Shown: piece by piece, positions 28,973 through 49,084 of the stretch
Layout of the letters: every line of letters starts with the position of its first letter
Numbering within the stretch: the first letter of the stretch is position 1
Assembly (NCBI RefSeq): GCF_020524585.1
Contig: NZ_JAIVLK010000001.1
Span: forward strand, 310,001 to 374,000
Length of the DNA stretch: 64,000 nt
Source: Celeribacter naphthalenivorans
GTDB lineage: Bacteria; Pseudomonadota; Alphaproteobacteria; Rhodobacterales; Rhodobacteraceae
Direction: 5' to 3'
Made by a program: the position numbers and the translations under genes
Notes under the pieces: model-generated
The model's input: only the letters and a program-made list of their open reading frames with translations
Told to the model about the DNA's origin: nothing
Database searches by the model: none

Positions 28973-29343
28973 CCGACCCGGGGCCAGAACTGGCCTGCGG
29001 CAAAACGAGCACTAGAGGCTCAAAGCGCTAAGTAAGCTGACGACCTCGGCTCAGAGCAGCCCTTCGCCCCAAGCGCGGCGAAAGCGCGCCCGCCCAACAT
29101 CATCCGAAGCATCGATGCGAAACTGCCTTGGCTATCTCAGGCATAGGTCTCCTAACAATGCCGATTTGCGAGGCGCTTCGGAAACTCATCTAAAAAATTA
29201 AACATTTGCAATTCAATTATCCAATGTTAAAAAATGATTCTGGATGATGTCAGGCATCGAGCCCGCCGTGAGGAGGCGCATCCGCATCGCAGACTGTGCT
29301 TGAATGCATGATCGTGCGGCGAAGGTTTTTGGGAGGAGAGAGC
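28973..29343. other. Intergenic upstream of the catabolic cluster
   Basis: No gene is recognised in 371 bases. The last 150 bases become AT-rich (about 29185-29235), a plausible promoter area for the SDR and binding-protein genes. Confidence 0.4.
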
Positions 29344-30081
29344 ATGAATCTTACTGACAAAGTTGTCTTGATCAGTGGTGCGGCGCGCGGGATGGGGGCA
29401 ACCGAAGCGCGGGACTTCGCGGCTGCGGGAGCAAGGCTTGTGCTGGGAGACGTCCTGGAAGAGGAGGTGCAAGCTCTGGCCTCCGAGCTAGGGGAGAATG
29501 TCGCGATTGCGGTGCGCCTCGACGTCACGAAAGCTGAAGACTGGCGGGCCGCCGTCGCCGCCGCGCAGGCGCGTTTCGGCCGCATCGATGTGCTTGTGAA
29601 CAATGCTGGAATTTTGCGGTTTTCCGACATAACCAGCTGCTCGGACGAAGAGTGGGAGCAGGTCATCGGGATCAATCTTAGCGGTACTTTCAAGGGGATA
29701 CGTGCTGTCGTTCCGATTATGGAGGCCGGAGGCGGCGGGTCGATCGTCAACATCTCTTCGACGTCCGGGCTCAAGGGGTTCTCCGGCGTTCCGGCCTATA
29801 TCGCCTCGAAGTTCGGAATCCGTGGCCTGACAAAAGCGGCCGCCGTCGAGCTCGCATCAAAGGGCATCCGCGTGAATTCGGTCCATCCCGGAAACATCAA
29901 CACAGACATGGTCGATGGGCTCTACGCCGATTACCGGCATGTGCCAATGAACCGCGTGGGGGAGCCGGGCGAGATCAGCAAGTTGGTGATGTTTCTGGCC
30001 AGCGATGACAGTTCGTTCTCGACGGGCGCAGAGTTTGTCGCGGATGGCGGAGAAACCAGCGGGATGCCGAATTTGTTCTGA
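29344..30081 (+). CDS. Short-chain dehydrogenase/reductase
   Basis: 245 residues from an ATG with GGAGGAG upstream. It is a classical SDR: cofactor motif SGAARGMGA (residues 10-18), NNAG in VLVNNAGIL, catalytic Ser in NISSTSG and YxxxK in AYIASKFG, and PG motif HPGNINTDM. Classical SDRs oxidise or reduce secondary alcohols/ketones with NAD(P); an Asp after the second beta strand (LVLGDVLEE) suggests NAD. It lies 137 bp before a substrate-binding protein gene, at the head of the catabolic cluster. The closest recognised type is steroid/cyclohexanol dehydrogenases; the substrate is unknown. Confidence 0.87.
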   Translation: MNLTDKVVLISGAARGMGATEARDFAAAGARLVLGDVLEEEVQALASELGENVAIAVRLDVTKAEDWRAAVAAAQARFGRIDVLVNNAGILRFSDITSCSDEEWEQVIGINLSGTFKGIRAVVPIMEAGGGGSIVNISSTSGLKGFSGVPAYIASKFGIRGLTKAAAVELASKGIRVNSVHPGNINTDMVDGLYADYRHVPMNRVGEPGEISKLVMFLASDDSSFSTGAEFVADGGETSGMPNLF

Positions 30082-30218
30082 GCACTCAGGCGCAGAAATC
30101 ACCTCAAATAGGTTTATCAATTACAAATCGATTTGAGATTTACCAATGATCACGTGTCGAAAGAGGAGCGGCACGGCGATCTTCAGTAGGGTGATCTTCA
30201 CCAAGGGAGGAAAGAGAA

Positions 30219-31307
30219 ATGCAGAAGACGTATCGGTTGGTCGGTTTCGGACTTGCGGCGACCACAGCTGCGAGCGTTTGGGCGCAAGGCGCGCTGGCGG
30301 AGGATTTTGTCTATGTGAATGAACATAGCGACATTGCGCCATTGTGTGGGGAAGGGCCGATCCGCGTCGCGCTCGTCGACGGCTATGGCGGCAATTCGTG
30401 GCGCCGGACGGCCTTTGCAGAGATCGAAGACGAGGCCTCGAAATGCGAGAATATCGTCGAGGTTACCTATGCCGAAGCCGGAGGAGATTTGCAGGCCTAT
30501 AGTTCCGCAATCAATGGCTTTGTGGCACAAGGTTATGAAATCATTGTGTCCTACACCGACTTCGGAGATGCGGCGATCCCGGTCTATCGGTCCGCTCAGA
30601 TGGCGGGGACGACGATGGTGCCGTATTTCTCTGATTTGAACGGTCAGATCGGGGTCGATTACGCCGCAAACCCCTATGAAGATGCGTTCCGTGCAGGCTC
30701 GATTTTTGGTGAATGGGTCGGGGAGACGATCGGCGAAGGCAAAACCGTTTTCTTGGGCGGTCTGGCTGGATCGGCCTCGTCCGTGACCTTTCTTGAGGGC
30801 TATAAAGAGGGCTTGAAAGCCTATCCCGCGGTTGAGCTTTTGGATGACAATTTCATTGCAACGAACTGGAACCCTGCAGATGCGCAAAAAGCGGTGGCCG
30901 GTCTGATTGCGAAATACCCCCAAATTGACGCGATTGCGACGGATTACGGGGTGACCAGTCTGGCTGCGGTCAAAGCCTTTCAAGGGGCAGGTTTGCCGGT
31001 GCCGGCAATGGCCTTCATCGCGACCAACAATGAATATAGCTGTAAATGGATGGAGGCGAAGGAGGCCGGCGAGGCTTGGCCACAGCTGGCGCTGAGTGGC
31101 ACCACCGCTGACGTACGATTTGCTCTGCGTGCGGGACTTGCGGCGCGCAATGGTGTGGAGGCTCCGGAACCGAGAGCGCTGGTGGCCTTCCCCTTTGCCG
31201 ACAGTGAAGCTGGTGTGGACCCGCTGTGTGATCCGAGCTTGCCGCCGGATGCGGACCTGTCCTCGTCCTTGCCTATGGACAAAATGGTCTCGCTTTTTGA
31301 GCGGTAA
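30219..31307 (+). CDS. Periplasmic sugar-type ABC substrate-binding protein (1)
   Basis: 362 residues with a signal peptide (FGLAATTAASVWAQGALAED) and the two-lobed periplasmic-binding fold of the RbsB/xylose class (RVALVDGYGGNSWRRTAFAE, IIVSYTDFGDAAIPVYRSAQ, YPQIDAIATDYGVTSLAAVK). GGGAGG precedes the ATG. It is a paralogue of the protein at 35715: both carry DG-x-GGNSWR after the first strand and KYPQID/KHPQID late. It probably feeds the same or a related transporter at 34674-39399. A good terminator follows the gene, so it is probably transcribed apart from the transporter genes. Confidence 0.85.
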   Translation: MQKTYRLVGFGLAATTAASVWAQGALAEDFVYVNEHSDIAPLCGEGPIRVALVDGYGGNSWRRTAFAEIEDEASKCENIVEVTYAEAGGDLQAYSSAINGFVAQGYEIIVSYTDFGDAAIPVYRSAQMAGTTMVPYFSDLNGQIGVDYAANPYEDAFRAGSIFGEWVGETIGEGKTVFLGGLAGSASSVTFLEGYKEGLKAYPAVELLDDNFIATNWNPADAQKAVAGLIAKYPQIDAIATDYGVTSLAAVKAFQGAGLPVPAMAFIATNNEYSCKWMEAKEAGEAWPQLALSGTTADVRFALRAGLAARNGVEAPEPRALVAFPFADSEAGVDPLCDPSLPPDADLSSSLPMDKMVSLFER

Positions 31308-31334
31308 TGCTGCATGAGCCAATATTCTGGCATT

Positions 31335-31370
31335 GCCGGATCGCCTTGCCTGGCGGTCCGGCTTTCGCTT
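31335..31370 (+). terminator. Rho-independent-like terminator after binding protein 1
   Basis: GCCGGATCGCC pairs with GGCGGTCCGGC across a 6-base loop (11 bp with one G-U), followed by TTTCGCTTT. It lies 27 bases after the stop codon. Confidence 0.7.
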
Positions 31371-31532
31371 TCTGTAGAAACGTGTACTTCGAACGGATAT
31401 CTCCGAGCAATGTTTCCAGTCCGGACAATGTTGTTATGATGAGAGGCCTTGCGCGGATAGGGGGCTGTCGGTGCCGGGTATAGTCATAGATATGACGGAG
31501 TTGATGAGCTGGAACATGGGTGACGTGAAGAG

Positions 31533-33158
31533 ATGACGAAGGAAAGCGGTGCAGGTCGGCGCATCAAATCTGTCGAAGTGTTTGGAGATATCCTCGCAGG
31601 GATGGTTCACGCCGGGGAGCAGACCTCTCTGGATGGTGTGGCCGACGCGACCGGGCTGTCGACGGCGAAAGTGCGCCCCTATCTGAACAGCCTTCAGCGC
31701 ACGGGCCTGGGGATCTATGATCCAATGAAACGGCAATATGCCTTTGGCCCGCTTGCTGCCTTGCTTGGGCAGCGGCGCATCGAGGCGCTGGCGCGGCGAT
31801 ACGGATTCCTAGACGCGGCACGCAACATCGCGCGCGAGCGCGATCTCTTTGTGGGCATCGTGTTCTGGGCCGGGATCGGGCCGACCGTGGCCAGCGTTAC
31901 CCCGTCGCGCATGGCCGCCGACAACAATGTGTTGCCGGGGACAGTTTACAGCGTCACCGGCACAGCCTCGGGCAGGGTGTTCATGGCATTCTCCTCTGAT
32001 CCGCGCGTTGCGGCGCGTGCCGAAGCGGAACTGGCGGGCAAAGCTTACCCGCGCGGGGTCGGGGAAATGCGTGAGGATGAAAATCTATCGGACGTGATTG
32101 CGGAGGTGCGCCGAGACGGCTTTTGCTTTATCCGCGATGCCTATTTCCCGGGGTACAATGGGATGGCCATGCCGGTCATGGATGAGGACGGAGAGCTGGT
32201 CTGCGTGATCGTCGTATCGGGGACTTCGAAAGCTCTCCCAAAGGATTTCGCGCAGGGTCTGACGGAACGCATTCGCACGGAGCTCGCTGAGCGGCTCGCG
32301 GCCAACCCATCTATGCTTTCAGCACCGGAAGTGAGCCGTATCGACCCGATCCGCAGCGAGCATTTTGAACCCTCCGACGCGGCATTGGATGAGCGGCGCG
32401 GCGTTGGGTCGGCGGAGACCGCGGTGCAAATCTTGCGTGCAATGACAGGCCGGGCTGGGCCAATGAGGCTTAAGGAAATCTGCGACCAGGCCGGGCTCGC
32501 CGCGGGCAAGGCGCATAGCTACATGGTCAGCCTGCGCAATGCGGGTTTGGTCGAAAAGGCGCCCGGATCGACACAATATCGCCTTGGGCCGCTGACGGCG
32601 GAGATGCTGCTTGTGCGACTGCACGGCTATGATGTCTTTGCTGCGGCGCGCGCCCTTGTGCGGCGACTGTCGCGGCAAACGGGTTTGATGTGCTTCCTCA
32701 CGACATGGGGGAGCTATGGCCCGGTCGTCGTGCATATTGAGCGCGGGCAGTTGACGCGCCATTCCAATATTTCTCTGGGCCGCGGCATGCCGCTCAGCAG
32801 TTCTGGCACCGGGCGATTGTTTCAAGCCAACGTCAGTCAACAGATTCTGGCCCCTGCGGTGGCGGCCGAAACGGCTGCTTATCCTCAGTTGCGCGCGCTT
32901 GCTCCCAGTCCGGAGGATCTTTCGGTGATGTTGGAAGACATTCGAAAGGCCGGATATGCGATCTTTGAGACTGGCCCTGTTGTGGGGCTTCGGTCGCTGG
33001 CCGCACCTGTGCGCAACCATGTGGGGGACATGTGGTTTGCGGTGACTTTGACGGGTGACATGGAGCGGGTGCGCGCTGAGGAGCAAGCGTTGCTAAAGCA
33101 GCTTCTGTCCGGCGTTGCGGCGATCTCTGCCGATCTGGGATATGCGCCGCCGCAGTAA
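31533..33158 (+). CDS. Tandem-duplicated IclR-family regulator
   Basis: 541 residues, twice the usual length of about 260. Two complete IclR units occur in series. Unit 1 has a winged HTH at about 10-62 (LDGVADATGLSTAKVRPYLN) and an effector domain at about 80-255. Unit 2 has an HTH at about 290-345 (LKEICDQAGLAAGKAHSYMV) and an effector domain at about 360-535 (RGMPLSSSGTGRLF). IclR proteins usually bind DNA as dimers or tetramers, so this fusion may be an intramolecular dimer with two different ligand pockets. It lies between the binding protein and the transporter genes and is their likely regulator. Confidence 0.88.
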   Translation: MTKESGAGRRIKSVEVFGDILAGMVHAGEQTSLDGVADATGLSTAKVRPYLNSLQRTGLGIYDPMKRQYAFGPLAALLGQRRIEALARRYGFLDAARNIARERDLFVGIVFWAGIGPTVASVTPSRMAADNNVLPGTVYSVTGTASGRVFMAFSSDPRVAARAEAELAGKAYPRGVGEMREDENLSDVIAEVRRDGFCFIRDAYFPGYNGMAMPVMDEDGELVCVIVVSGTSKALPKDFAQGLTERIRTELAERLAANPSMLSAPEVSRIDPIRSEHFEPSDAALDERRGVGSAETAVQILRAMTGRAGPMRLKEICDQAGLAAGKAHSYMVSLRNAGLVEKAPGSTQYRLGPLTAEMLLVRLHGYDVFAAARALVRRLSRQTGLMCFLTTWGSYGPVVVHIERGQLTRHSNISLGRGMPLSSSGTGRLFQANVSQQILAPAVAAETAAYPQLRALAPSPEDLSVMLEDIRKAGYAIFETGPVVGLRSLAAPVRNHVGDMWFAVTLTGDMERVRAEEQALLKQLLSGVAAISADLGYAPPQ

Positions 33159-33487
33159 GGTCTGCCAGAAGCAGCTCCGCATTTTTCACTCATTTCTCAC
33201 CTCGTTCTCATCTGGCGCTTGTCGAGCGCGGGTTTTGGCTGCCTGAAACAGGTTTCCGCACCTGAAAGCCAAATTCCTGCGGTGAAGAAATTTGATTTAG
33301 GCAAGTCGATTCGCAAATGGCGCAAATCCTACATGCGGCTTGACCGCGCCTCACTTGACCTTTGTGGCTGTCAGGGCCGGACGCTTGGAATGCGCGTTTC
33401 TTGCAAAAGGGTGAGAGGGCATGACGGTAAGAGTTTTGGTGAGGCGCCGCTCTTAAGCGTTCTGAGCTTATGAGGGGGAGTTCACAT
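33159..33487. other. Intergenic before EthD pseudogene
   Basis: 329 bases with no recognised gene. The end carries AGGGGGAG (33473-33480), a ribosome binding site for the broken EthD-like gene. Confidence 0.4.
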
Positions 33488-33994
33488 ATGATGACGAGAT
33501 TTGGCCTGCTGAAGAAAAAGAAGGGGGTGTCCGCGTAGGGTTTCAACCAGAATTGGGGGAAGATTCACGGACCGATGGCCTCCAGATTCCCAGGCCTGCG
33601 CGGGTGCTGGCAACATGCTGTGACCTGCAAGGAGCAATTCGGCATTCGTCATGCAGGAGGGCCAAATTGGGGGTCGGATGGGTTTTTGAGCTGTATTTTG
33701 ACGACGCGGATGCGATGAATGGGGCCGTGAGAGATGGCGCCTTTGCGCCAGCGCTGGCTGACGAAACGGATTTTTTTGCAAGACGTTAAGATTGTCGCCC
33801 GTGAAAAGCACAAAGTTGTCGAAATGAGACTGGATGATGGTCCGGTCGATGGGGGAATCGAGTTTTGGTTTAGGGATAAAGAGGCTACGGCAGAGCTATA
33901 TGCGCAGGTCATTGCGACGGAGACGCAGGAGCACGCGAAGGTGTTTCTCGATACGATCACGCCTTACTTCGTGAGCAGCTGTCCGCCTGTTTGA
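33488..33994 (+). pseudogene. EthD-domain protein gene with nonsense codon and two compensating frameshifts
   Basis: Starting at the ATG at 33488 behind AGGGGGAG, the reading MMTRFGLLKKKKGVSA meets a TAG at 33536. It then resumes in the same phase as GFNQNWGKIHGPMASRFPGL and continues to about 33680. There it shifts by one base at a T5 run into FELYFDDADAMNGAVRDGAF, and shifts back at a T7 run (33772-33778) into DVKIVAREKHKVVEMRLDDG and onwards to the TGA ending at 33994. The reconstructed protein of about 168 residues has the EthD pattern (short KK/G start, HGPMA, PGLRG, DG-ELYFDD-AM). EthD proteins are small dimeric accessory proteins of catabolic clusters. Decay or sequencing error at homopolymers cannot be told apart from sequence alone. 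Confidence 0.7.
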
Positions 33995-34559
33995 TGGGCG
34001 GCGCCTTTAAAATCGGCACCAGAGATCCGAGAAAAATGATTCGATATTGGTGAATTGATATTTTTGACGACCGAAACTTCCAGCCGCCAACTTTCATTAT
34101 TGGGTGGCGCGGACAGGAGCTGGGTAAAAAATTAGTCATTAAGGCTCATTTTCTCTGATCGTAAATTATATTTTTAAACTGCATCTGAGGAGAAAAATCT
34201 CATTCTGCCTTGGCTTCAGTCATGGGGCTGAGCGCCCAGTCGAGAGCGCAAATTCATGACGACGCCAGTCGAGCGCCTCTTGGCTTGAATGATTTCAAGG
34301 TGCTGATTTATATGAAATAATTTAAAATTTTGCGCTGAATTTTGACGGGCCTCGCGTCATTTTTTGCCCCCCTGTCTCTGACGGTGATGTCGCGCGCCTT
34401 CTGACTTCTAAGCCTTTGTTTGGGTCGTGTTCTAGAACTGGAAAAATCCCAAAAATCCAAAAAATATACGTTAACAGCAAATAGATTTGCGCATTACAAA
34501 TTATGTGCTAACCATAACCAAGAGGGGGTCGCACCCCTCAAAGGGAGGAATTTCAGACC
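33995..34559. other. AT-rich intergenic region upstream of the transporter operon
   Basis: 565 bases without a convincing gene and clearly more AT-rich than neighbours, especially 34140-34340 and 34440-34510. The promoter and IclR operators of the transporter operon are expected here. Confidence 0.45.
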
Positions 34560-34661
34560 ATGGCGACAGACCGCCTGGCGTGGTCCGCGAGAGCGGGCTG
34601 TGCCCAGAATTCTGCTGGCTTGCGGCTGGTGGGCGGGTCAGCGGTCTGTGCGTGTATCTGA
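34560..34661 (+). CDS. Short leader-like open frame (33 aa) before the permease gene
   Basis: An ATG at 34560 sits behind a strong GGGAGGAA and encodes a 33-residue frame (MATDRLAWSARAGCAQNSAG and onwards) ending at TGA 34659-34661. Its stop overlaps the AGGAGG of the permease gene, so translation through it would deliver ribosomes to that start. It resembles no family; it may be a leader peptide or the scar of a deleted gene. Confidence 0.35.
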   Translation: MATDRLAWSARAGCAQNSAGLRLVGGSAVCACI

Positions 34662-34673
34662 GGAGGACGCGTG

Positions 34674-35651
34674 ATGAATACAGCAAACAACGCAACTTAT
34701 GGCACAATGCCGCCTGGCCTGTTTGGCCGCTGCCGGCCGTCGTTCGAGCTTGGGACAGTTGTGCTGTCAACGCTGGCTCTGATCGTGCTCTGCATGATCT
34801 TTGCGCCTTCGAGCATCACGTCTGGCGCGCTTGCGGGAAGTCTGCCCTTCGCGGCTGTGGCGGTGATCGTCGGCCTTGGTCAGATGCTTGTGGTTCAGCA
34901 GGGGGGCTTCGATCTGTCCGTCCCCGGCGCGATCAGCCTCTCGGTTGTGATCTCCACACATTACCCCGCCGGAAATGACGCGGAACTTTTGCCCGCGATC
35001 TTGCTGGCACTCGCCTTCGCGCTCGGCGCGGGCCTTTTCAACGGCATCTTGATCGGCATCGTGCGCCTCAACGCCATCGTGGCCACCATTGGCACGAATG
35101 CGCTGCTGTACGGCGGTGTCATCGCGATTTCCGGCGGTGTGCCGCGCACGACTACGCCGCTTTTGTCGCGCATTGCAGGGGGCGAGTTTCTGGGCCTCGG
35201 CCACACGGTCTGGTATGCGCTTGTCATCGTCTTGGTGGTGGCGGTCGTCCTGAAAAAGACCGTCGCCGGACGCCGGTTCGAAGGCATCGGCGCCAATCCG
35301 GCCATGGCGCGCACGGTCGGCCTGCGCGTGCGTTCCTACGAGATGTCCGCCTATGTCAGCGCACAGCTGCTCTACTGCCTCGCCGGCATCCTGCTCGCCG
35401 GTCTGACCAGCCAACCCACCGCGTTTCTGGGCAACAGCTACCTGCTGCCTTCCGTGGCCATCGTCGTCCTTGGCGGGACATCCTTGATGGGCGGACGGGG
35501 CTTTCCCGTACCGACGGCGCTGGCAGCCTTCTTCCTGACCCAACTGGGCCAGTTCTCGATCACCATCGGCGTGCCGTTCTCGGCCCAGACCATCATTCAA
35601 GCGCTCGCGCTGGGTCTTGGGATCGCGATCTATTCGTTCCGCCGCAGCTGA
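34674..35651 (+). CDS. RbsC-type ABC sugar permease
   Basis: 325 residues from the ATG at 34674 (AGGAGG seven bases before; a GTG at 34671 is also in frame). Eight or more hydrophobic segments are present. The family signature GQMLVVQQGGFDLSVPGAI near residue 65 and IVVLGGTSLMGGRGFPVPTA near 265 match ribose/xylose-type permeases of the BPD_transp_2 class. It forms the membrane channel of a sugar-type importer. A second permease domain exists in the fusion at 36859, so a heterodimeric channel is likely. Confidence 0.87.
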   Translation: MNTANNATYGTMPPGLFGRCRPSFELGTVVLSTLALIVLCMIFAPSSITSGALAGSLPFAAVAVIVGLGQMLVVQQGGFDLSVPGAISLSVVISTHYPAGNDAELLPAILLALAFALGAGLFNGILIGIVRLNAIVATIGTNALLYGGVIAISGGVPRTTTPLLSRIAGGEFLGLGHTVWYALVIVLVVAVVLKKTVAGRRFEGIGANPAMARTVGLRVRSYEMSAYVSAQLLYCLAGILLAGLTSQPTAFLGNSYLLPSVAIVVLGGTSLMGGRGFPVPTALAAFFLTQLGQFSITIGVPFSAQTIIQALALGLGIAIYSFRRS

Positions 35652-35714
35652 TCCCCGATCTCACCGAGATTTCGCCAAGATTTCACTGACACGGACTTTA
35701 GAGGAGGAGACACC

Positions 35715-36773
35715 GTGAAACTTACATCCAGAAAGATCGCTTTCGCCGCCACAACGGCCCTGAGCCTTGCCGCCACTGCGGCCTTTGCAGAGGACGTCCC
35801 GTCCTGGTGTGGACCGGACAACGCAACGCTGGCCTTACTTGACGGCAGCGGCGGCAACAGTTGGCGCCAAATCACCAGCGCCTCGGCCCGCGAAGAGGCT
35901 GAGAAGTGCCCGAGCATCACCGATTTCTTCTACGCCGACGGCCAGGGCGACACGCAGAAATCCATTTCCGACATCAAGAGCTTTGCGGCCCGTGGGGTCG
36001 ATGCCATGGTGGTCTTCGGCGATGCCGGTCCCGCCGTGCTTCCGGCGCTCACCGCGGCGCATCGCGCAGGTGTGACGGTCGTGCCCTATCGTCAACAGGT
36101 CGGCGGCGAAGAGGGGGTGAACTACGCCAAATTCGTATCGGCCTCCTTCGTGAGCGATGGCGTGAATTTCGGCAACTTCATCAAGCGCGAATTCCCGGAT
36201 GGCGCCAAAATGCTGTTCCTCAGCGGACCGGCGGGCAACAGCGTCGGGCTTGAGATGCTCGAAGGGCTGAATTCCGTGCTCGATGAGCGCTACGAATACC
36301 TCAACCCGGCGCCTTTCCATGTGACCAACTGGGACCCGGCGCTGACGCAACAGGTGCTGACCGCCGAGATCGCGAAACACCCGCAGATCGATGTGATCAT
36401 CTCCGACTACGGCGCGTCTCTGATCGGTGGTCTGCCCGCCTTTGAGCGCAACGGGCGGTCTATCCCCGCGATCACCACGGAATCCGTCAATCTTCTGGGC
36501 TGCTTCTGGCAGGACAAACAGGCCAACAACCCGGACTTCAAACTGCTGACCCGGGGTGGTGGCAATGAAAACGGGCGCTTGGCCGCGCAATGGGCGATTG
36601 CCCTGGCGACCGGCGGCACGCCGCCCGAGACCAGCGTCTACACCTCCGAGATTTTCGAGGACTCCGTCACGGGTGAGCCCAGCGAGGTGCAATGCCGTCG
36701 CGATTTGCCCGGCGAGATTTACCTCTCGGCAAAACTGAGCCCGGAGAAACAGCTCGAGGCGATCAACCAATAA
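35715..36773 (+). CDS. Periplasmic sugar-type ABC substrate-binding protein (2)
   Basis: 352 residues from a GTG with GAGGAGGAGA upstream. It has a signal peptide (KIAFAATTALSLAATAAFAE) and a two-lobed binding fold (LALLDGSGGNSWRQITSASA, DAMVVFGDAGPAVLPALTAA, HPQIDVIISDYGASLIGGLP). It is a paralogue of the protein at 30219 and keeps the same GGNSWR motif. Lying between the permease and the ATPase-permease fusion, it is the cognate receptor of this importer. Two receptors suggest the transporter accepts two related ligands. Confidence 0.87.
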   Translation: MKLTSRKIAFAATTALSLAATAAFAEDVPSWCGPDNATLALLDGSGGNSWRQITSASAREEAEKCPSITDFFYADGQGDTQKSISDIKSFAARGVDAMVVFGDAGPAVLPALTAAHRAGVTVVPYRQQVGGEEGVNYAKFVSASFVSDGVNFGNFIKREFPDGAKMLFLSGPAGNSVGLEMLEGLNSVLDERYEYLNPAPFHVTNWDPALTQQVLTAEIAKHPQIDVIISDYGASLIGGLPAFERNGRSIPAITTESVNLLGCFWQDKQANNPDFKLLTRGGGNENGRLAAQWAIALATGGTPPETSVYTSEIFEDSVTGEPSEVQCRRDLPGEIYLSAKLSPEKQLEAINQ

Positions 36774-36858
36774 AACACGCAGGCTCCCGGTCGTTACGGC
36801 GGCCGGGGTCCGCGGACACAAACGCATTGTCCAACTGCTCTGGAGGAGGGGGTAGGTC

Positions 36859-39399
36859 ATGTCTATCGCAAGCAATATCGACGCGGCAAACACAGGGTCG
36901 CATATGGAGACCAACGTGCATTCTTTGGCCGAGGCGCCCATCACCATCGGGATGGCGGGCATTACAAAATCCTTTTCCGGCGTCTACGCCCTGACCGATG
37001 TGACCGTCGCGTTTCGTGCCGGCGAGGTCCATGCCGTTTTAGGGGAGAATGGCGCGGGAAAATCGACGCTCATGAGCATTATCTCCGGCGTGCTTCAGCC
37101 GGATCGCGGCGAGATCACCTTTGAGGGACACGTCGCATCTCCCTTAACGCCGGAGAAGGCGGCAGATCTGGGAATTTCCATTTCTTATCAGCATCCTGCT
37201 ATTGTTGAAGACCTGTCGGTTCTGGAAAACCTACAGGTGTCCTTGCCGCCTGAACTGTTCGAGGGGCGCAAGGCTCAAGATGTCGCGCGCGAGGTCATGT
37301 CCGCCGTGGGGTTGGACGTGCCGCTCAAGATGCGGGCAGAGGGGCTGAGCATCGGGCAAAAACTCCTGCTTGAGATCGCCAAAGCCTTGGCCACCAATCC
37401 GAAAGTTCTGATCCTTGACGAGCCGACGGCCTCTCTCGACAAAGACGCCTCGGACATGCTGTTCGAACGCGTGCGTGCGGCGGCGGCCCGAGGCACGGCG
37501 GTCATCTATATCACCCACCGTTTGGCCGAAATCCGGCAGATCGGGCATCGTGTCACCGTTTTGCGCGATGGCCATGTGGCGGGCACGGGTCTGGTGCGCG
37601 ATCTGTCCGACAGCGAACTTTTGGACATGATCGTCGGGCGCAAGCTCGACTCCACCTTCCCGCCGAAGGCCAAGCCGATGCTGGGTCAGGCCAATCTGAC
37701 CGTCAAAGGTTTGGGCGGACACGGGTTTTCCGATGTCTCCTTTGAGGCGCGACCGGGTGAGATCGTGGGGGTCGCAGGCGTCGCGGGCAACGGTCAGACC
37801 GAGTTGATGCGCGCGCTTGCGGGGCTTGATGCGGCGCGTGGCGAGGTGAAACTGGCCGGGCAACGTCTCAGCCATAAAGACCTGATCCACGCTGCGGCCT
37901 TCATGCCCGCCGACCGTTTGGTCGAAGGCGTCGCCAAGTCCTTTTCCGTGCGGGAAAACGCGGCTTTGGGCGCCTTGGAGAAATTCGCCTCTTTCGGGTT
38001 CATGAGCCGTCGCAAGGAACATGCCTCTGTTGTCGACACATTCCGCGAGCTGTCGGTGAAAACGCCGGGGCTTGAGGCCAAGATCACGGCGCTTTCGGGC
38101 GGTAACCAGCAGAAGGTCGTTCTGGCGCGGGCGCTTTTGGAACAGCCGGGGTTGATCGTCGCCGATGAGCCGACGCAGGGCGTCGATGTCGGCGCGCGTT
38201 TCGAAATGTATCGCATCCTGCGCGAAATCAGCGGCGCAGGGACGCCGGTGGTCGTCAATTCGTCGGATGCCGCCGAGCTTGAGGGGCTGTGCGACCGCGT
38301 GATCGTGCTGTCGAAGGGCAGGGTGGTTGCCACGCTGACCGGCGAGGATGTGGTCGAGGCCAAGATCGTCGCGGCAGCCGTCGGCGCGGACCATCATGCC
38401 GAGACCGGCGCGGATCGCCGGGCGGACAGATCGCGAGGTGGTGCGCTTCGGCATTTCCTGCAATCGGACAACGCGCCTGTCGTTCCGCTTTTGGCGATCA
38501 TGGTCGGCCTTGCGCTCTATGGCTATAGCCAGAACGCCAACTTCCTGTCGTCATTCAATGTCTACAACACCCTGATGTTGGCCACGACGCTGTGCTTTAT
38601 CTCGATGGGGCAAACCATCGTCTTGATGCTGCGCGGCGTGGATCTCTCCGTTGGGCCACTGGCCGGGTTGTCGGTGGTGATTGCGTCTTTCTTTGTCAAT
38701 GACGGCGCCTCTTTGCCGACGATGCTGACGGGGTTCGGGCTTATGCTGGTCGTCGCGGTTGTCGTCGGGCTCGCCAACGGCAGTCTCGTGCGCTACGCCA
38801 AATTCACCCCAATCGCCGCGACGCTGGCCATGTATATGGGGCTTCAGGGCATCAGCTTTCTGATGCGCGAGGGGCCGGGCGGCTACATCAGCTACGATGT
38901 CACCGCAATCCTCGGCGCACAGATCGGGCCGCTGCCCTGGGCCTTTGTCGCGCTGATCGTCTGTGTGATCGTCGGGGAATATGTGCTGCGCAAAACCCGC
39001 ATCGGCTGGCAAATCCGTGCCGTTGGCTCTGATGAAGAGGCCGCGCGCCGGATCGGGTTGAACGTCAATCGTCTCAATATTCTGGGCTATGTCGCCACGG
39101 CTCTGTTCGTCTTCGTCGGTGCACTGATGCTCATGGCGCAGATCGGCGTCGGCGATCCGCAACAAGGCACCAATTACACACTCGCCAGCATCACCGCAGT
39201 TGTGCTGGGCGGCACGTCCCTAAGCGGCGGACGCGGCACCTTTATCGGCACGGCGCTGGGTGCGGTTCTGTTGACGGAAATTTTCACGGCCATCGCCTTT
39301 TTGGGGCTCTCGCAGACCTATCAATACGTTTTCCAAGGCGCGCTGATCGTGTTCGCGGCGGTGATCTACACCACCCTGCGCGGACGGCCTCAGGCGTGA
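36859..39399 (+). CDS. Fused ABC importer: double ATPase plus RbsC-type permease
   Basis: 846 residues. ATPase half 1 (about 30-265) has GENGAGKSTL, the variant signature LSIGQKLLLEI and VLILDEPTASLD. Half 2 (about 270-510) has a degenerate P-loop GVAGNGQTEL, signature LSGGNQQKV and LIVADEPTQGVD, as in RbsA-type proteins. After a linker, residues about 535-846 form a complete permease (GQTIVLMLRGVDLSVGPLAG, VVLGGTSLSGGRGTFIGTAL). RbsA and RbsC functions are normally on separate chains. GGAGGAGGGGG precedes the ATG. With the permease at 34674 and binding proteins it makes a complete importer. Confidence 0.9.
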   Translation: MSIASNIDAANTGSHMETNVHSLAEAPITIGMAGITKSFSGVYALTDVTVAFRAGEVHAVLGENGAGKSTLMSIISGVLQPDRGEITFEGHVASPLTPEKAADLGISISYQHPAIVEDLSVLENLQVSLPPELFEGRKAQDVAREVMSAVGLDVPLKMRAEGLSIGQKLLLEIAKALATNPKVLILDEPTASLDKDASDMLFERVRAAAARGTAVIYITHRLAEIRQIGHRVTVLRDGHVAGTGLVRDLSDSELLDMIVGRKLDSTFPPKAKPMLGQANLTVKGLGGHGFSDVSFEARPGEIVGVAGVAGNGQTELMRALAGLDAARGEVKLAGQRLSHKDLIHAAAFMPADRLVEGVAKSFSVRENAALGALEKFASFGFMSRRKEHASVVDTFRELSVKTPGLEAKITALSGGNQQKVVLARALLEQPGLIVADEPTQGVDVGARFEMYRILREISGAGTPVVVNSSDAAELEGLCDRVIVLSKGRVVATLTGEDVVEAKIVAAAVGADHHAETGADRRADRSRGGALRHFLQSDNAPVVPLLAIMVGLALYGYSQNANFLSSFNVYNTLMLATTLCFISMGQTIVLMLRGVDLSVGPLAGLSVVIASFFVNDGASLPTMLTGFGLMLVVAVVVGLANGSLVRYAKFTPIAATLAMYMGLQGISFLMREGPGGYISYDVTAILGAQIGPLPWAFVALIVCVIVGEYVLRKTRIGWQIRAVGSDEEAARRIGLNVNRLNILGYVATALFVFVGALMLMAQIGVGDPQQGTNYTLASITAVVLGGTSLSGGRGTFIGTALGAVLLTEIFTAIAFLGLSQTYQYVFQGALIVFAAVIYTTLRGRPQA

Positions 39400-39431
39400 T
39401 CGCGTGGCAGATTTAAAGAGGAGGAAAAATT

Positions 39432-40208
39432 TTGGAAACGCTCGAAGGAAAGAACATCGTGATCACCGGCGGCACCGGCGGGCTTGGCTTTGCCATCGCT
39501 GAACGGCTGATAACGTCGGGCGCGAATGTCGTGCTTGCGGACCTGCCGGGGGCCGATGGGGCGGGTGCCCTTGCCGCTTTGCCCCAAGATCCGGCCCAAG
39601 ACAAGGGGCGCGCCATTTTCGTCGCGATGGATGTCTCTGACGCGGACGACGTGGAACGCGCCGCCGCCGAAGCCGAGGCGCGTCTGGGTCCCATTGACGG
39701 TGTCGTTGCGAACGCCGGCATCGCGCCGCCGACCGATGCGTTCGACTACGATGCGCAGTCCTGGCGGCGCACCATGGGCGTCAATGTCGATGGCGTTTTC
39801 TTCACCGCGCAGAGCTTTGCCAAGCGGATGAAGGCGGCTGGTCGGCCCGGCAGCATCGTGATGATTTCATCGATTGCCGGCTTTCGCGTCGTCAAGCCGG
39901 AGCGTCACGCTGCCTATGGCACAAGCAAAGCTGCGGTGGCGCATCTCGCCTCGCTTTTGGGGGTGGAATGGGCGCCGCACGGCATCCGTGTGAATGCATT
40001 GGCGCCCGGCTATACCGCCACGCAAATTCTGAAAAAGGCGCAAGAAAGCGATCCGGAGATGATGGCCAATTGGCTGTCGCAGGTTCCGATCGCGCGCCTG
40101 TTGGAGCCGGCGGAGATCGCCAACGGCGTTGCGTTTCTGCTGTCCGATCTGGCCAGCGGCGTGACCGCCACAACGCTTTCCGTGGATGGGGGCTATCGAC
40201 CGGCCTGA
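39432..40208 (+). CDS. Short-chain dehydrogenase/reductase with TTG start
   Basis: 258 residues. The start is a TTG at 39432, placed behind AGAGGAGG and giving METLEGKNIVITGGTGGLGF; no better start lies nearby. SDR features: TGGTGGLG, ADLPG after the second strand (suggesting NAD), VVANAGIAP, MISSIAG with the catalytic Ser, AAYGTSKAA with Tyr and Lys, and a LSVDGGY end. It lies 32 bp after the transporter fusion and 55 bp before the Old Yellow Enzyme, so it belongs to the same operon. It probably oxidises an alcohol or reduces a ketone of the imported compound. Confidence 0.87.
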   Translation: METLEGKNIVITGGTGGLGFAIAERLITSGANVVLADLPGADGAGALAALPQDPAQDKGRAIFVAMDVSDADDVERAAAEAEARLGPIDGVVANAGIAPPTDAFDYDAQSWRRTMGVNVDGVFFTAQSFAKRMKAAGRPGSIVMISSIAGFRVVKPERHAAYGTSKAAVAHLASLLGVEWAPHGIRVNALAPGYTATQILKKAQESDPEMMANWLSQVPIARLLEPAEIANGVAFLLSDLASGVTATTLSVDGGYRPA

Positions 40209-40263
40209 GCGCCGTGTCCCCTTTCGCAATTTTTGAAATCCACAGTCAAAACAGGAGGAAACC

Positions 40264-41391
40264 ATGACTGTTGCAGAAGCAAATCAAGAGACCAAGACAA
40301 GCACGCTGTTCGAACCCGCCAAGCTCGGCGCTTGGGACCTGACCAATCGCGTTGCCATGGCACCGATGTCGCGCTTTCGGGCCGATGCAAAAACCTGGGT
40401 CCCTGCGGATTACACCGCCGAATACTACGGTCAGCGCAACACCTGCGGCATGCTGATCACCGAAGCGACCCAGATGTCGCCGGACGCCGTCGGCTATCCG
40501 CGCTCGCCGGGGCTCTACAATGCCGAACAGACCGAGGTCTGGAAAGGGATCGTCGACGCGATCCACGCGGGCGGCGCCAAGGCGGTCGTTCAGCTTTGGC
40601 ACACGGGGCGCATTTCGCACGCTTACAACCGTCCGACCGACAACCCGCATCCGATGGGGCCGTCGCCGATCAAACCCGTCACGGAGATGATCACCGACGA
40701 GCACGGCATGGTTGAGATTCCGACGCCGCGTGAAATGACCAAGGACGACATCCAGTATGTCGTGGACATGTATGCCGAGACCGCGCGCAATGCCAAAGCG
40801 GCCGGGTTTGACGGGATCGAGATTCACGCCGCCAACGGCTATCTGATCGACCAGTTCTGTGCTTCGAACATCAACAAGCGCACGGATGAATATGGTGGCT
40901 CCTACGAGAACCGTTTGCGTTTCCTGCGTGAGATCATCGAGGCGGTGGCCACGGTCTATGACAAGGGCAACATCGGCGTGCGCTTCTCGCCCTATGGCAC
41001 CTTCAACGATGTGCATGAAGAGGACCCGCTCGCTCTCTTCACGGCTCAGGTGAAACAAGCTGAGGCCTCCGGCGTGGGCTATGTCCATGTCATCCGCCCC
41101 GAAGTCACGGGCGACAATGATGTGCAGGAGGCTTTCGATCATGCCGACGTGATCGGTGTGGCGCGCGATCTCTATTCCGGCCTCATCATCGCGGCGGGTC
41201 AATACACACGCGAAACCGCCGAGCAGGAAATCGCATCGGGACGTGCGGACATCGTGGCCTTCGGGCGGCCCTTCGTGTCGAACCCCGACCTGATTTCGCG
41301 GATGAAAGCGGGCACGGAACTGGCGCCGCTCAACCGCGACACGCTCTATATTCCGGGCCGCGCGGGCTACATCGACTATCCCGAAGCCTAA
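40264..41391 (+). CDS. Old Yellow Enzyme-family NAD(P)H:flavin oxidoreductase (alkene reductase type)
   Basis: 375 residues, a TIM barrel of typical OYE length. The FMN site shows APMSRFRA and QLWHTGRISH. The substrate-binding His and Asn are in EIHAANGYLIDQF (about 188-191), followed by NKRTDEYGGSYENRLRF. The end (VAFGRPFVSNPDL) also matches N-ethylmaleimide-reductase-like OYEs. These enzymes reduce the C=C bond of alpha,beta-unsaturated carbonyls with FMN. ACAGGAGG precedes the ATG. With two SDRs and a SnoaL-like protein, this suggests the imported compound yields an enone intermediate. Confidence 0.9.
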   Translation: MTVAEANQETKTSTLFEPAKLGAWDLTNRVAMAPMSRFRADAKTWVPADYTAEYYGQRNTCGMLITEATQMSPDAVGYPRSPGLYNAEQTEVWKGIVDAIHAGGAKAVVQLWHTGRISHAYNRPTDNPHPMGPSPIKPVTEMITDEHGMVEIPTPREMTKDDIQYVVDMYAETARNAKAAGFDGIEIHAANGYLIDQFCASNINKRTDEYGGSYENRLRFLREIIEAVATVYDKGNIGVRFSPYGTFNDVHEEDPLALFTAQVKQAEASGVGYVHVIRPEVTGDNDVQEAFDHADVIGVARDLYSGLIIAAGQYTRETAEQEIASGRADIVAFGRPFVSNPDLISRMKAGTELAPLNRDTLYIPGRAGYIDYPEA

Positions 41392-41460
41392 GCACCCCGG
41401 GCCGGCGCGCGGTCCTCGCGCGTCCGCCACAGAATTCCATAGAAATCGGAGGAGAAAATC

Positions 41461-41919
41461 ATGGATATCGAACACCGCATTCAGCGTCTTGAGGACATTC
41501 AGGACATCGAGAAGCTGACATATCAATACGCAGCCTATTGCGACGACAACTATAACCCCGACGGTATCGCGAGCTGTTTCACGGAGGATGGCGTTTGGGT
41601 CGTTGACGGGGAAGGCGGCTCCAACAATGGCCGCGAGGAAATCCGCGAGCATTTCCGTCAACTGTCAAAGCACATTTCCTGGGCCATCCACATCGTGACC
41701 AACATGCGTGTCGATGTGCATGAGGACGGCAAAAGCGCCACCTCGCATTCCTATCTTTTGTGCTTCTGCACCATCGGAGAGGATGCTGTGGTGCTGACAT
41801 TGAACTACACCAACCAATTCGTGAAGCAGGATGGCAAGTGGTTCTTCAAAGAGCTGCGCGGGAGCACCCATCAGGTCTCCAACTGGGATCAGGGCTGGGT
41901 AAAACAAAAGTTCCGCTAA
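41461..41919 (+). CDS. SnoaL-like / NTF2-like small protein
   Basis: 152 residues of the cone-shaped SnoaL/NTF2 fold: an N-terminal helix pair (IEHRIQRLEDIQDIEKLTYQ), CFTEDGVWVVDGEGG and a beta sheet (SWAIHIVTNMRVDVHEDGKS, WFFKELRGSTHQVSNW). Family members include ketosteroid isomerases, lyases, polyketide cyclases and hydratases acting on small ring compounds. GGAGGAGA precedes the ATG. It is the last gene of the operon, before a strong hairpin. The pairing with an OYE hints at double-bond migration or water loss/addition; the reaction is unknown. Confidence 0.82.
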   Translation: MDIEHRIQRLEDIQDIEKLTYQYAAYCDDNYNPDGIASCFTEDGVWVVDGEGGSNNGREEIREHFRQLSKHISWAIHIVTNMRVDVHEDGKSATSHSYLLCFCTIGEDAVVLTLNYTNQFVKQDGKWFFKELRGSTHQVSNWDQGWVKQKFR

Positions 41920-41974
41920 GGGCGGGTCTGTTAAGGCAGGCGTCCTAGCCGCGAAACTCCGGATGTCTGTCTTG

Positions 41975-42006
41975 GCCCGCCGTCAGTGTCCTCCACGACG
42001 GCGGGC
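41975..42006 (+). terminator. Hairpin ending the catabolic operon
   Basis: GCCCGCCGTC pairs perfectly with GACGGCGGGC over a 12-base loop, 55 bases after the SnoaL-like gene, then ATCTTCGTT. The stem is strong though the U-run is weak. Confidence 0.65.
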
Positions 42007-42458
42007 ATCTTCGTTGAAGCGCTTCATACGAGACGGATCAACGCCACCCGACTATCGCAAGCGCAGCGGGGCCTCATGTGCACTTTCTGAGCACGGCCAA
42101 ACTTGGTGTGTGGCGCAACATTTTGGCGCCAGCCTATGAGGAGACGAATTGTCGATTTTGCCAGTGTAAATGAATATTTTCGGGAGTAGAGAGGGTCCGC
42201 TTTCCACCCGTTTTACATAAATGTCGCGACCGGCCCTTACCCGACGTGCAATCCATACTGAGCGAATGTGTGCTCCAGAGCAGGTCATCACCAATATGCG
42301 CTGTGCATCATTTGGCTTTGTAAACATGATGAAAAATGCTTTGTTGACCCCATCAGCACCGATCTCTTTACTATGGGTCCACGTCCTATCGGCGGCTATG
42401 GCTTTGGATGAGCAGGTTCAATTGGTTGGGAAATCTGGCTCAGGACAGGAGGTCAGTC
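42007..42458. other. Intergenic region with dispersed repeat
   Basis: No gene is recognised. It carries repeat A copy 2 (42195-42237) and the upstream region of the HTH-hydrolase gene. Confidence 0.45.
42195..42237. repeat. Dispersed repeat A, copy 2
   Basis: GTCCGCT to ACCGGCCCT, 43 bases, aligned without gaps to 27362-27404 with about seven differences. Repeat B does not follow it here. Confidence 0.65.
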
Positions 42459-44255
42459 ATGACAGATCTTTCAGGCGACGAACCCTGCTCAACACAAGAT
42501 GAAACGGCGAACCCCGAGCGCTGCGAGGTTGAACCTGAGGATAGGTCTGACTGGTCGAAAGATGCGGACAGGGCGGATCTTGTCCATCGGATTTATGATA
42601 CCGCCCTGGACAACTCGCTGTGGCCTGACATGATCCTGCGTGTCTTCGAGGTGATCGAAAAGACTCAGGCAGACCCGGTATCAAAAGAAGATTTGCTGGA
42701 TATTCAGCGCCACTTTGCCAGGGCATTGTCGCTTTCCGAAAAAATGTTAGCTCTTGAAAACAGTGTCGAACTGAAAGATCGGCTGCTGGATCACCTTGGT
42801 ATCTCCATGATTTTTCTGGGTGAACAGGGCGAGTTGATCTCGCAAAAGGACCGATCCGACAAACAGGCATATGTTCCAAACCCAAAATTTCTGCCCGACC
42901 GGCCTGAGGTTCAGGACATGATCTCCGCATCTCAACAGGCCGAAGGCCCGGTCATCCGTGCCGAACCCGGGGGGACAATGCCCGCGCAGATCCTTTTCTC
43001 ACGCAGGCAAATGGTAAGTCGGTCTTTGCCACAGGGCGTCGCGTGGGTCCTGGTCTGTGTTGACAAAACCGCCGAACAGCTTGCCGACCATGTTGGGCAA
43101 AACTTTGCGCTCACTCCCGCAAAGACCCGCCTTCTGGCCGGGTTTCTGCGTCATGGCAACCTTCGCCGGGCGGCTGAGGACTGCGGCACGAGCTATGAAA
43201 CGGGGCGCACGTATCTCAAGGATATATGCCAGAGCATGGGTGTCCGTGGGCAATCGGAATTGCTGCAATATATCCTGTTCAGCTCGCCGGTCATACCGAA
43301 CGACAGCCCAGCGAACGCCGAGACCCTGAAGACGCGGCAGGTCTTGCAACATGACGATGGCAAAACTCTGGAAATTTTCACCCTTGGCGCACAATCCGGC
43401 TATCCTCTCATCATGTTCGATGCTCTGACCGGTGGCGCGCTGGATATCCTTGGCTATCCCGAGCGGTATCAACCATTGCTGGATCGGCTGGGGGCGCGGC
43501 TGATCATTCCGTGTCGGCCCGGCACCTTTCGGTCATCGTTTCGCGTCCAACATTCGGCCTCTGACTATGCCGAAGACGTTGCAATGATCAGCGAGCGTCT
43601 GGGCCTGTCGCGCTTTTCTCTGCTGGGCTATTCCTATGGTTCAGTTGCGGTGCTGGGTGCCGCCCATCACCTGCGCGACCGTGTGGACCGGATTACGCTG
43701 GCGTCTGTGTTCTACCCCAACTACGTCGCGCCGAATTGGAAGGAGATGGATTTCTTCTATCAGATCGCGTCGATTATCGGCCGCCGCTGGCCGGGGCTCC
43801 TGCGCCGTGTCATTCCTTTTCTGGCCAATTCGATCCTGCACAATATGGACAATTTCTGTGATCGCGCCGCCGCTCGGGCTGATTGCGCCCATGAAGAGGC
43901 CATCCTGAACGCGCCCATGGTCCGGCAACGGTCCCGTGACATGCTCGAAGAACGCATTTCACAGGGGATGGACGGCCTTATTCAGGAATATCAACTCATC
44001 GCCCAGCCACTTGATGTTGATCTGGGCCAGATCACAGCGCCCGTTCAATTGTTTCACGGCATGTGCGATCGCATCAACCCGATGGGCGGAGCCGAGGCGC
44101 TTGCACAGGATCTGGGACAGGTGAGGCTGCACAAACTCCCCGATATGGGCCATGCTTTTATCTATGCGGAATGGGACTGGCTGTTGAAGGCGGCGATGGG
44201 GCAGCCCTTCGATATTCCCGCGGCGACACGGCGCGGTCTTTTGACATCGGGATAG
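42459..44255 (+). CDS. LuxR-type HTH fused to an alpha/beta hydrolase
   Basis: 598 residues from the ATG at 42459 (AGGAGG eight bases before). Residues 1-210 contain an acidic start, a helical stretch and a possible PAS-like sensor part (DHLGISMIFLGEQGELISQK). Residues about 217-277 look like a LuxR/GerE-type HTH (LTPAKTRLLAGFLRHGNLRR, then YETGRTYLKDICQSMGV). Residues about 297-580 are an alpha/beta hydrolase with nucleophile elbow LLGYSYGSVAVLG (Ser about 392), acid DRINP (about 536) and His in MGHAF (about 564), so the triad seems complete. DNA binding and hydrolysis in one chain suggest a regulator that processes its own ligand; this is inference. Confidence 0.85.
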   Translation: MTDLSGDEPCSTQDETANPERCEVEPEDRSDWSKDADRADLVHRIYDTALDNSLWPDMILRVFEVIEKTQADPVSKEDLLDIQRHFARALSLSEKMLALENSVELKDRLLDHLGISMIFLGEQGELISQKDRSDKQAYVPNPKFLPDRPEVQDMISASQQAEGPVIRAEPGGTMPAQILFSRRQMVSRSLPQGVAWVLVCVDKTAEQLADHVGQNFALTPAKTRLLAGFLRHGNLRRAAEDCGTSYETGRTYLKDICQSMGVRGQSELLQYILFSSPVIPNDSPANAETLKTRQVLQHDDGKTLEIFTLGAQSGYPLIMFDALTGGALDILGYPERYQPLLDRLGARLIIPCRPGTFRSSFRVQHSASDYAEDVAMISERLGLSRFSLLGYSYGSVAVLGAAHHLRDRVDRITLASVFYPNYVAPNWKEMDFFYQIASIIGRRWPGLLRRVIPFLANSILHNMDNFCDRAAARADCAHEEAILNAPMVRQRSRDMLEERISQGMDGLIQEYQLIAQPLDVDLGQITAPVQLFHGMCDRINPMGGAEALAQDLGQVRLHKLPDMGHAFIYAEWDWLLKAAMGQPFDIPAATRRGLLTSG

Positions 44256-49007: not shown

Positions 49008-49084
49008 GCGGTTGTAGCTCAGTTGGTTAGAGTACCGGCCTGTCACGCCGGGGGTCGCGGGTTCGAGCCCCGTCAACCGCGCCA
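49008..49084 (+). tRNA. tRNA-Asp (anticodon GTC)
   Basis: 77 bases including the encoded CCA. The acceptor arm GCGGTTG pairs with CAACCGC. The D loop AGCTCAGTTGGTTAGAGT, anticodon GTC at 49042-49044 in CCTGTCACG, and the GGTTCGAGCC T arm are all present. It is identical to the copy at 49148. Confidence 0.96.

Follow-up and report, generated by a model that had tools for sequence, protein, structure and literature searches.

A nine-gene uptake and catabolic cassette in Celeribacter naphthalenivorans and its possible link to a homogentisate island

The bai gene set for bile-acid 7-dehydroxylation includes a short-chain dehydrogenase/reductase (SDR), the Old Yellow Enzyme (OYE)-type protein BaiCD, and the SnoaL-type protein BaiE. 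In the aerobic aromatization of cyclohexanecarboxylate by Sinomonas cyclohexanicum (chc pathway), a dehydrogenase oxidizes the ring alcohol and two desaturases then aromatize the ring (PMC9795900). Here, we analyzed a cassette of nine genes at positions 29344 to 41919 of a 64,000-nucleotide stretch of the Celeribacter naphthalenivorans genome (NZ_JAIVLK010000001.1, positions 310,001 to 374,000; called the window below), in which SDR, OYE, and SnoaL-type genes stand with genes for ATP-binding cassette (ABC) importers. We propose that the cassette may be the uptake system and front end of a catabolic route for an oxygenated, nonaromatic C6-C2 ring compound, the lower part of which would lie on another contig and end in ring cleavage of homogentisate (HGA). 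We regard this proposal as about evenly balanced between right and wrong. The parts of the cassette are of known kinds, and their combination is without a match in the searches made. No description of the cluster was found in the titles, abstract openings, and passages of the literature searched, and it may be described elsewhere.

Gene calls and Pfam searches bore out the gene set and span given in the original prediction for this DNA: there are nine genes, all on the forward strand, and the main Pfam match of every product exceeds its gathering cutoff (Table 1). The same nine genes are found in the same order in Aquimixticola soesokkakensis and Celeribacter sp. PS-C1, with 86 to 99% protein identity, so that the suggested look for this order in other Rhodobacteraceae was positive in two genomes. 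Conservation of the order at this level in two other named genomes demonstrates that it is not due to chance. These genomes came from a scan of named genomes with the binding protein SBP2 as the query, which reaches close relatives only and returned three loci: those of Aquimixticola (L003) and PS-C1 (L004) and one in Sinisalibacter aestuarii (L005). At the last, SBP2 (66%) and a double IclR regulator (49%) stand with TRAP genes and a short SnoaL-like frame; none of the genes labeled in the 20.8 kb of this locus is an ATPase-permease fusion. DNA homology of the window to both relatives begins and ends at the limits listed in Table 1, and identity is about 80% in a first block (SDR1 to the EthD-type gene, up to 33.84 kb) and about 92% in a second (permease to SnoaL, from 34.4 kb). 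A megablast search of plasmids with the whole cassette gave no match.

In both relatives, the cassette is contiguous with an HGA island, which is found elsewhere in the genome of the window and was absent from the original prediction. In Aquimixticola, SnoaL is followed by TRAP genes, a second OYE gene (OYE2), the IclR genes IclRa and IclRb, a GMC alcohol dehydrogenase gene, SBP3, an aldehyde dehydrogenase (ALDH) gene, maiA, hmgA, and fahA, after which the island goes on with MBL, CoA transferase, VOC, ketosteroid dehydrogenase (KSTD)-like, SDR3, ABCfusB, PermB, EthDB, TauE, and LLM genes. PS-C1 has the same order from cassette to island until its contig ends inside MBL. The names MBL, VOC, KSTD, GMC, ALDH, and hmgA rest on family searches, while maiA and fahA were named by likeness to annotated genes of Rhizobium sp. 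AB2/73. In the genome of the window, the island lies on contig C2 (at about 252 to 279 kb) and the cassette on a different contig (C1). This C2 island carries its own intact EthD-type gene, a second OYE gene, and TRAP genes, and it has no CoA transferase gene. Two further Celeribacter genomes (G780 and G785) have the island and no cassette-type SBP1 match. The C2 island is 85 to 89% identical in DNA to these two islands and 73 to 81% identical to those of Aquimixticola and PS-C1 (aligned pieces of at least 500 bases). Thus, the island found together with the cassette comes in two versions, and transfer between genera has involved either the cassette or the island.

We then considered how often cassette and island occur together. 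Among 20 genomes sampled from the genus, SBP1/SBP3 matches were found in 4 and the cassette type in 2, both of which also have the island type. At an E value of ≤1e-50, SBP1 was found in 3 of 394 family genomes, and a fusion of the ABCfusB clade (E ≤ 1e-150 to the window fusion, clade assigned by tree) was found in the same three; the fusion of a fourth genome (G312) belongs to another clade. A chance figure of 1e-7 for this co-occurrence ignores shared descent and transfer and is not to be relied on. In the class sample, ABCfusB was found in 2 of 385 genomes (the genome of the window and, at 43%, G756). A more distant island of about 37 kb is present on a plasmid of Rhizobium sp. AB2/73 (NZ_CP067074.1, about 205 to 242 kb), where homologs of SBP1 (73%), SDR1 (67%), and OYE (50%) share one island with NTF2/SnoaL, EthD, paired IclR, ABCfusB, KSTD, GMC, ALDH, fahA, and maiA genes. 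This island differs in its gene order and has no close relative of SBP2 or ABCfus (best, 34% and 39%), and its SnoaL-type protein is closer to the second Aquimixticola SnoaL (48%) than to the protein of the window. Taken together, we consider the tie between cassette and HGA island fairly strong.

The HGA clusters of Dinoroseobacter shibae (plasmid pDSHI02) and Tropicibacter oceani resemble the island in having hmgA, fahA, an MBL-fold protein gene, and a MarR-type regulator gene. However, they have a gene annotated as an FAD-dependent oxidoreductase, whereas the C2 island has GMC, ALDH, KSTD, and SDR genes. In the HGA clusters of three other loci (G777, G784, and contig C33 of G153), the corresponding gene is an aromatic-ring hydroxylase of the PRK08132 type. 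No such hydroxylase was recognized in the C2 island, where the KSTD, SDR, GMC, and ALDH genes are found instead; for the regions of G153 contig C26 and of G779, gene lists alone were consulted.

Next, we asked whether tyrosine could be the source of HGA. The genome of the window (99.96% complete) has a single hmgA, which is in the C2 island and passes its equivalog model (635.9 bits, cutoff 510.75). No 4-hydroxyphenylpyruvate dioxygenase (HPPD) over the cutoff was found in this genome, the best match being a 635-amino-acid open frame on contig C10 (169.4 bits, cutoff 277). Because the only hmgA is in the island and no HPPD exceeds the cutoff, tyrosine is probably not the HGA source in this genome. 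We surveyed 22 genomes, namely, the 20 of the genus sample, Aquimixticola (G042), and G153; hmgA passed in 10 and HPPD in 2 (G782 and G784, the latter with HPPD in its HGA cluster). The island genomes (that of the window, G780, G785, PS-C1, and Aquimixticola) each carry a single hmgA, which belongs to the island, and none of them has an HPPD that exceeds the cutoff.

A reading of these genes as one importer with two binding proteins was not supported. A tree built from 33 binding proteins and another built from 25 fusions (the PS-C1 fusions are absent from the ABC tree) agree with each other in the main clades. One clade, starred in the tree, unites SBP1 with SBP3 and has members from the window, its own C2, Aquimixticola, PS-C1, G153, G780, G785, and AB2/73, and the fusions of these SBP1/SBP3 islands form the ABCfusB clade, while the SBP2 clade matches the ABCfus clade. 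In addition, an SBP1 ortholog (77%) of G153 occupies the binding-protein slot of the island, after GMC. From tree and gene order, we therefore assign SBP1 to the island transporter ABCfusB and not to its neighbor in the cassette. Thus, going by their sequences, SBP1 and SBP2 belong to different transporters.

The transport genes of the cassette encode the parts of a CUT2-type importer (Peripla_BP_4, a two-domain ATPase, and a BPD_transp_2 permease), with the ATPase and one permease fused; in ABCfus the Walker A pattern occurs once only, in the first ATPase domain. No named sugar-transporter equivalog of NCBIfam was passed, the scores and cutoffs being 29.5/342 and 36/510 bits for the binding proteins, 91.9/388 for the permease, and 391.7/689 for the ATPase. 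The nearer relatives of both transporters adjoin genes for the catabolism of aromatic rings, nitriles, or alcohols (a fusion match was present in 80 plasmid records, of which 10 from the top of the list were examined). This points to nonsugar catabolism, and the earlier judgment that ordinary sugar use is not the obvious function stands. A structure model of SBP1 from five sequences had a mean pLDDT of 52.4, too poor for use. In a Thioclava locus from mangrove soil (L021), nitrile hydratase and amidase genes adjoin two such transporters, and an SBP1-like protein (53%) goes with one of the two. A nitrile or cyanoglucoside substrate, at which this locus hinted, was dropped, as no nitrile hydratase or amidase was recognized among the genes of the cassette or its own island.

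A conserved cluster of Rhodobacteraceae and Rhizobiaceae (L007 to L012, L014, L022, L023, L073, and L074) holds the Perm-SBP2-ABCfus genes together with genes for 2,3-butanediol-dehydrogenase-, SDR-, YciI-, Gfo/Idh-, and Zn-dehydrogenase-like proteins, a maleylacetate reductase, and an intradiol dioxygenase; the SDR is not in the L073 annotation. This cluster looks like a route from a ring compound to hydroxyquinol.

We then examined the enzymes. SDR1, which has the YxxxK motif, scored best among NCBIfam models with ChcB1 (275.6 bits, cutoff 400), and its PDB relatives are Rv2002, 3α,20β-hydroxysteroid dehydrogenase, and, lower in the list, cyclohexanol dehydrogenase. SDR2 exceeds the cutoff of NF005559, a subfamily model bearing the name glucose 1-dehydrogenase (218.1 bits, cutoff 215), which SDR1 fails by 0.4 bits; the best PDB relative of SDR2 is galactitol dehydrogenase. 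SDR3 of the C2 island also passes a subfamily of this name. The OYE belongs to its family by a wide score (PF00724, Oxidored_FMN; 287.2 bits, cutoff 27) and reached 335.6 bits with the N-ethylmaleimide reductase model (cutoff 403). Members of this family bind substrate through a His-x-x-Asn (or His) pair, which HAAN at residue 188 fits. The SnoaL protein matches PF13577 (84.1 bits, cutoff 24) and passes TIGR02246 (40.4 bits, cutoff 33.95), and it resembles BaiE and, more weakly, ketosteroid isomerases. In enzymes of the SnoaL, scytalone dehydratase, and BaiE type, an Asp/His dyad and an upstream Tyr have catalytic roles. Y23, D28, and H77 of the SnoaL protein align with the Tyr, Asp, and His of BaiE and are invariant in 10 aligned sequences, and the same residues are found in the other 2 of the 12 gathered. 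It is therefore a probable dehydratase or lyase; its structure model from three sequences was too poor for use (mean pLDDT, 48.9). On the island, the KSTD-like flavoprotein is nearest, among characterized ring models, to the cyclohexenone-ring desaturase ChcC2 (581.8 bits, cutoff 900), the ALDH is nearest to the phenylacetaldehyde dehydrogenase StyD, below the cutoff, and the GMC protein passes a choline-dehydrogenase subfamily model.

These assignments allow a comparison with the two systems introduced above. The likeness to chc is that ChcB1 and ChcC2 are the nearest characterized ring-specific models for SDR1 and the KSTD-like protein. However, the scores are well under the cutoffs, no P450 hydroxylase was recognized in the cassette or island, the product here would be HGA rather than 4-hydroxybenzoate, and the genes here come with their own ABC importers. 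With bai, the cassette shares the trio of an SDR, a SnoaL-type predicted dehydratase with Tyr/Asp/His, and an OYE. In contrast to BaiCD, with its model of 642 positions, the OYE here is a single domain of 375 amino acids and scored 131.5 bits against a cutoff of 825; the neighboring genes also differ, and the substrate would differ too.

In the proposed route, SBP2, the permease, and ABCfus would import one compound, and SBP1 would supply ABCfusB/PermB, the transporter of the island itself, with a related one. An SDR would oxidize a ring hydroxyl to a ketone, the SnoaL-type enzyme would remove a group beta to this ketone by dehydration or ether opening, and the OYE would reduce a ring C=C where the oxidation state of the substrate demands it. 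The GMC alcohol dehydrogenase and the phenylacetaldehyde-dehydrogenase-like ALDH of the island would oxidize a two-carbon side chain to an acetate, and the island SDR and KSTD-like flavoprotein would desaturate the ring to give HGA, which HmgA, MaiA, and FahA would process. We infer each of these reactions, their order, and the substrate class, an oxygenated nonaromatic six-membered ring with a two-carbon side chain, from the kinds of enzymes and the HGA end point. Plain tyrosol or phenylethanol was dropped as a substrate, since the ring SDRs and the ring desaturase would presumably be needless.

Cyclohexylethanoid quinols or enones such as halleridone are one candidate substrate. Parts of the literature report the quinols halleridone and hallerone from Phyla nodiflora (PMC3524650, in the reference list of PMC4129175) and cornoside-type compounds from the mangrove Avicennia marina (PMC4052303). 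Rhizobium sp. AB2/73 and strain S7/73 come from Phyla canescens, a relative of Phyla nodiflora; these links to plant compounds are circumstantial only. Quinol-type compounds were in mind before the literature search, so this was not a blind prediction. In its most specific form, the proposal would make the cassette and C2 island the first recognized bacterial route from cyclohexylethanoid quinols or enones (halleridone/rengyolone, the cornoside aglycone, and similar compounds) or closely related C6-C2 hydroaromatics to HGA, with dehydrogenation, beta-elimination, and ring desaturation replacing an aromatic-ring hydroxylase. The two ABC importers would be dedicated to this route and belong to a family specialized for oxygenated carbocycles rather than sugars. 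We put this form forward tentatively and think it rather unlikely to hold as a whole.

Table 1. Features of the cassette region (positions in the window)
Feature	Position	Strand	Basis or remark
SDR1	29344..30081	+	PF00106/PF13561; ring-alcohol/hydroxysteroid dehydrogenase type
SBP1, periplasmic binding protein	30219..31307	+	PF13407; without own ATPase/permease in cassette
Two-domain IclR-type regulator, single 541-aa polypeptide	31533..33158	+	PF01614 in two stretches, HTH_IclR in C-terminal half
Decayed EthD/MmlI-type gene	33449..33979	+	tblastn pieces of intact relatives, two frames
Stand-alone ABC permease	34671..35651	+	PF02653
SBP2, binding protein partnered with adjoining ABC genes	35715..36773	+	PF13407
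ABCfus, two ATPase domains and permease in one chain	36859..39399	+	PF00005 in two stretches and PF02653
SDR2	39432..40208	+	PF13561
OYE, single-domain ene-reductase type	40264..41391	+	PF00724
SnoaL_4-fold protein, predicted dehydratase/lyase	41461..41919	+	PF13577
Cassette limits common to Celeribacter sp. PS-C1 and Aquimixticola	29190..42011	+	DNA alignment stops at both ends

Within the cassette, the genes from the permease to SnoaL are separated by 32 to 85 bp and the first three genes by 137 and 225 bp. The two halves of the IclR regulator are 25% identical to each other, and each is about 30% identical to IclRa and IclRb, the separate IclR pair of the HGA island in the same genome. The gap of 1,512 bp between the regulator and the permease (33159 to 34670) is not empty and holds the remnants of an EthD-type gene, found in two frames by tblastn with its intact relatives. 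This gene is open in both relatives, with 202 amino acids in Aquimixticola, where the EthD domain was found, and 263 in PS-C1. Just past the cassette and outside the shared DNA, there is a 615-amino-acid protein (42408 to 44255) whose C-terminal half contains an alpha/beta-hydrolase domain and whose N-terminal half has no Pfam match, and two tRNA-Asp genes lie at 49008 to 49224, about 7 kb downstream of the cassette.

Other relatives of single genes were also observed. The SnoaL protein was found at an E value of ≤1e-25 in 5 of 385 genomes of the class sample, that of the window and four at 39 to 41%. Outside the two relatives, the closest SnoaL in the searches made (59%) is on Rhodococcus ruber plasmid pmega_1, which also has SBP1-like (40%), ABCfusB-like fusion (46%), SDR, EthD, and OYE-type genes. 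An OYE region of Rhizobium ACO-34A was set aside, as the annotated features of the 19 kb examined include no such transporter and no HGA gene; a thiolase gene lies near this OYE, as in AB2/73. Beside the C2 island, a set of genes (L038, 382 to 7919) reads as homoprotocatechuate type (aldolase, hydratase, two ALDH, extradiol-type dioxygenase, isomerase, and MarR genes), these names being a reading of the sequence with one Pfam check, on the dioxygenase-like gene. The G785 island adjoins a second related set (L068, 9051 to 15575) of KSTD-like (55%), SDR3-like (59%), TRAP, and IclR genes, and in Aquimixticola a further pair of OYE and SnoaL-type genes follows past the far end of its island (L037, 420 to 2022).

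Several observations weigh against the proposal that the cassette feeds an HGA-ending route. The ChcB1, ChcC2, and StyD models were not passed, and the only model passed by the KSTD-like protein, PRK06134, is a subfamily model without a function name. Furthermore, the OYE and the KSTD-like protein catalyze opposite chemistry. A comparison of exact gapped 5-mer pairs over 8 intergenic stretches of the window and 9 of C2 revealed no promoter motif common to cassette and island: the most shared pairs, in 3 of 17 stretches, resemble ribosome-binding sites before start codons, ten background draws had maxima of 2 or 3, and the comparison is crude, so that a degenerate motif would escape it. Aquimixticola and PS-C1 are 84 to 91% identical in DNA over cassette and island and have one island by recent transfer; thus, they should not be counted as separate cases. 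In G153, hmgA is present twice, each time outside the contigs that carry the island, and tblastn found no hmgA within 197.6 to 248.0 kb of the AB2/73 plasmid. G777 and G779 have hmgA without HPPD and without an SBP1/SBP3 match, and therefore a missing HPPD alone is not a mark of the island. Finally, 9 of the 11 SBP2 loci compared (L007 to L012, L014, L022, and L023) sit in the hydroxyquinol-type, not an HGA, cluster, L005 and L013 being the other two; L022 was the source of the reference genes, and the 11 do not include the window or its two close relatives. Two further plasmids both carry this cluster by annotation. The same SBP2 loci would fit a self-contained cassette for another ring compound, such as a cyclitol-like C6 polyol, that came to lie close to the HGA island by hitchhiking in one mobile region, as would the separate contigs of cassette and island in the genome of the window. 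However, SBP1 belongs with the transporter of the island, the island is present at least in part in all three genomes of the 394 that carry SBP1, the AB2/73 island has diverged SDR1, SBP1, and OYE homologs in a different order, and the nine genes include no ring-cleavage dioxygenase. We consider such a self-contained function possible, if doubtful.

The original prediction, which our results partly support, had suggested the conversion of ring ketones or enones. Such chemistry is plausible given the relatives of SDR1, the Tyr/Asp/His of SnoaL, and the His-x-x-Asn of the OYE; its application to steroids or terpenoids in particular was not supported. The degradation or detoxification of a steroid or terpenoid ketone or enone would account for the hydroxysteroid dehydrogenases among the relatives of SDR1, the resemblance of SnoaL to BaiE and ketosteroid isomerases, the presence of an OYE, and the ketosteroid dehydrogenase-like flavoprotein of the island. 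Yet the lower pathway is that of HGA, and the gene tables, gene calls, and family searches of the cassette and its own island, the last covering some of the called genes and with no genome-wide search for such genes, revealed nothing recognizable as a Baeyer-Villiger enzyme, a P450, or a gene for steroid ring cleavage; we find this explanation improbable. It is also unlikely that the cassette is decaying and no longer functions in this strain: its EthD-type gene is broken and the TRAP-OYE2 part found after SnoaL in each of the two relatives is missing at that place, but the other nine genes are open and 86 to 99% identical to those of the relatives, and the C2 island carries TRAP-OYE2 as well as an EthD-type gene that is intact. 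Ordinary uptake of a sugar or polyol, with accessory oxidoreductases, would explain the CUT2-like binding proteins and ATPase and the SDR relationships to glucose 1-dehydrogenase and galactitol dehydrogenase, and farther relatives of the fusion do stand with sugar genes, in Peribacillus (34%) beside an FGGY kinase and in Mesorhizobium (46%) near a second sugar ABC transporter and a four-carbon acid sugar kinase. Given that no named sugar-transporter equivalog was passed and that the Pfam search of the nine genes showed neither a kinase nor an aldolase nor an isomerase, we consider this very improbable.

If the cassette is the front end of a route through HGA, it would show how coastal bacteria consume nonaromatic ring natural products, and it would provide a function for a branch of "sugar-type" ABC importers. 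It would also help to explain why the HGA pathway is kept in some genomes without HPPD, the enzyme that serves tyrosine.

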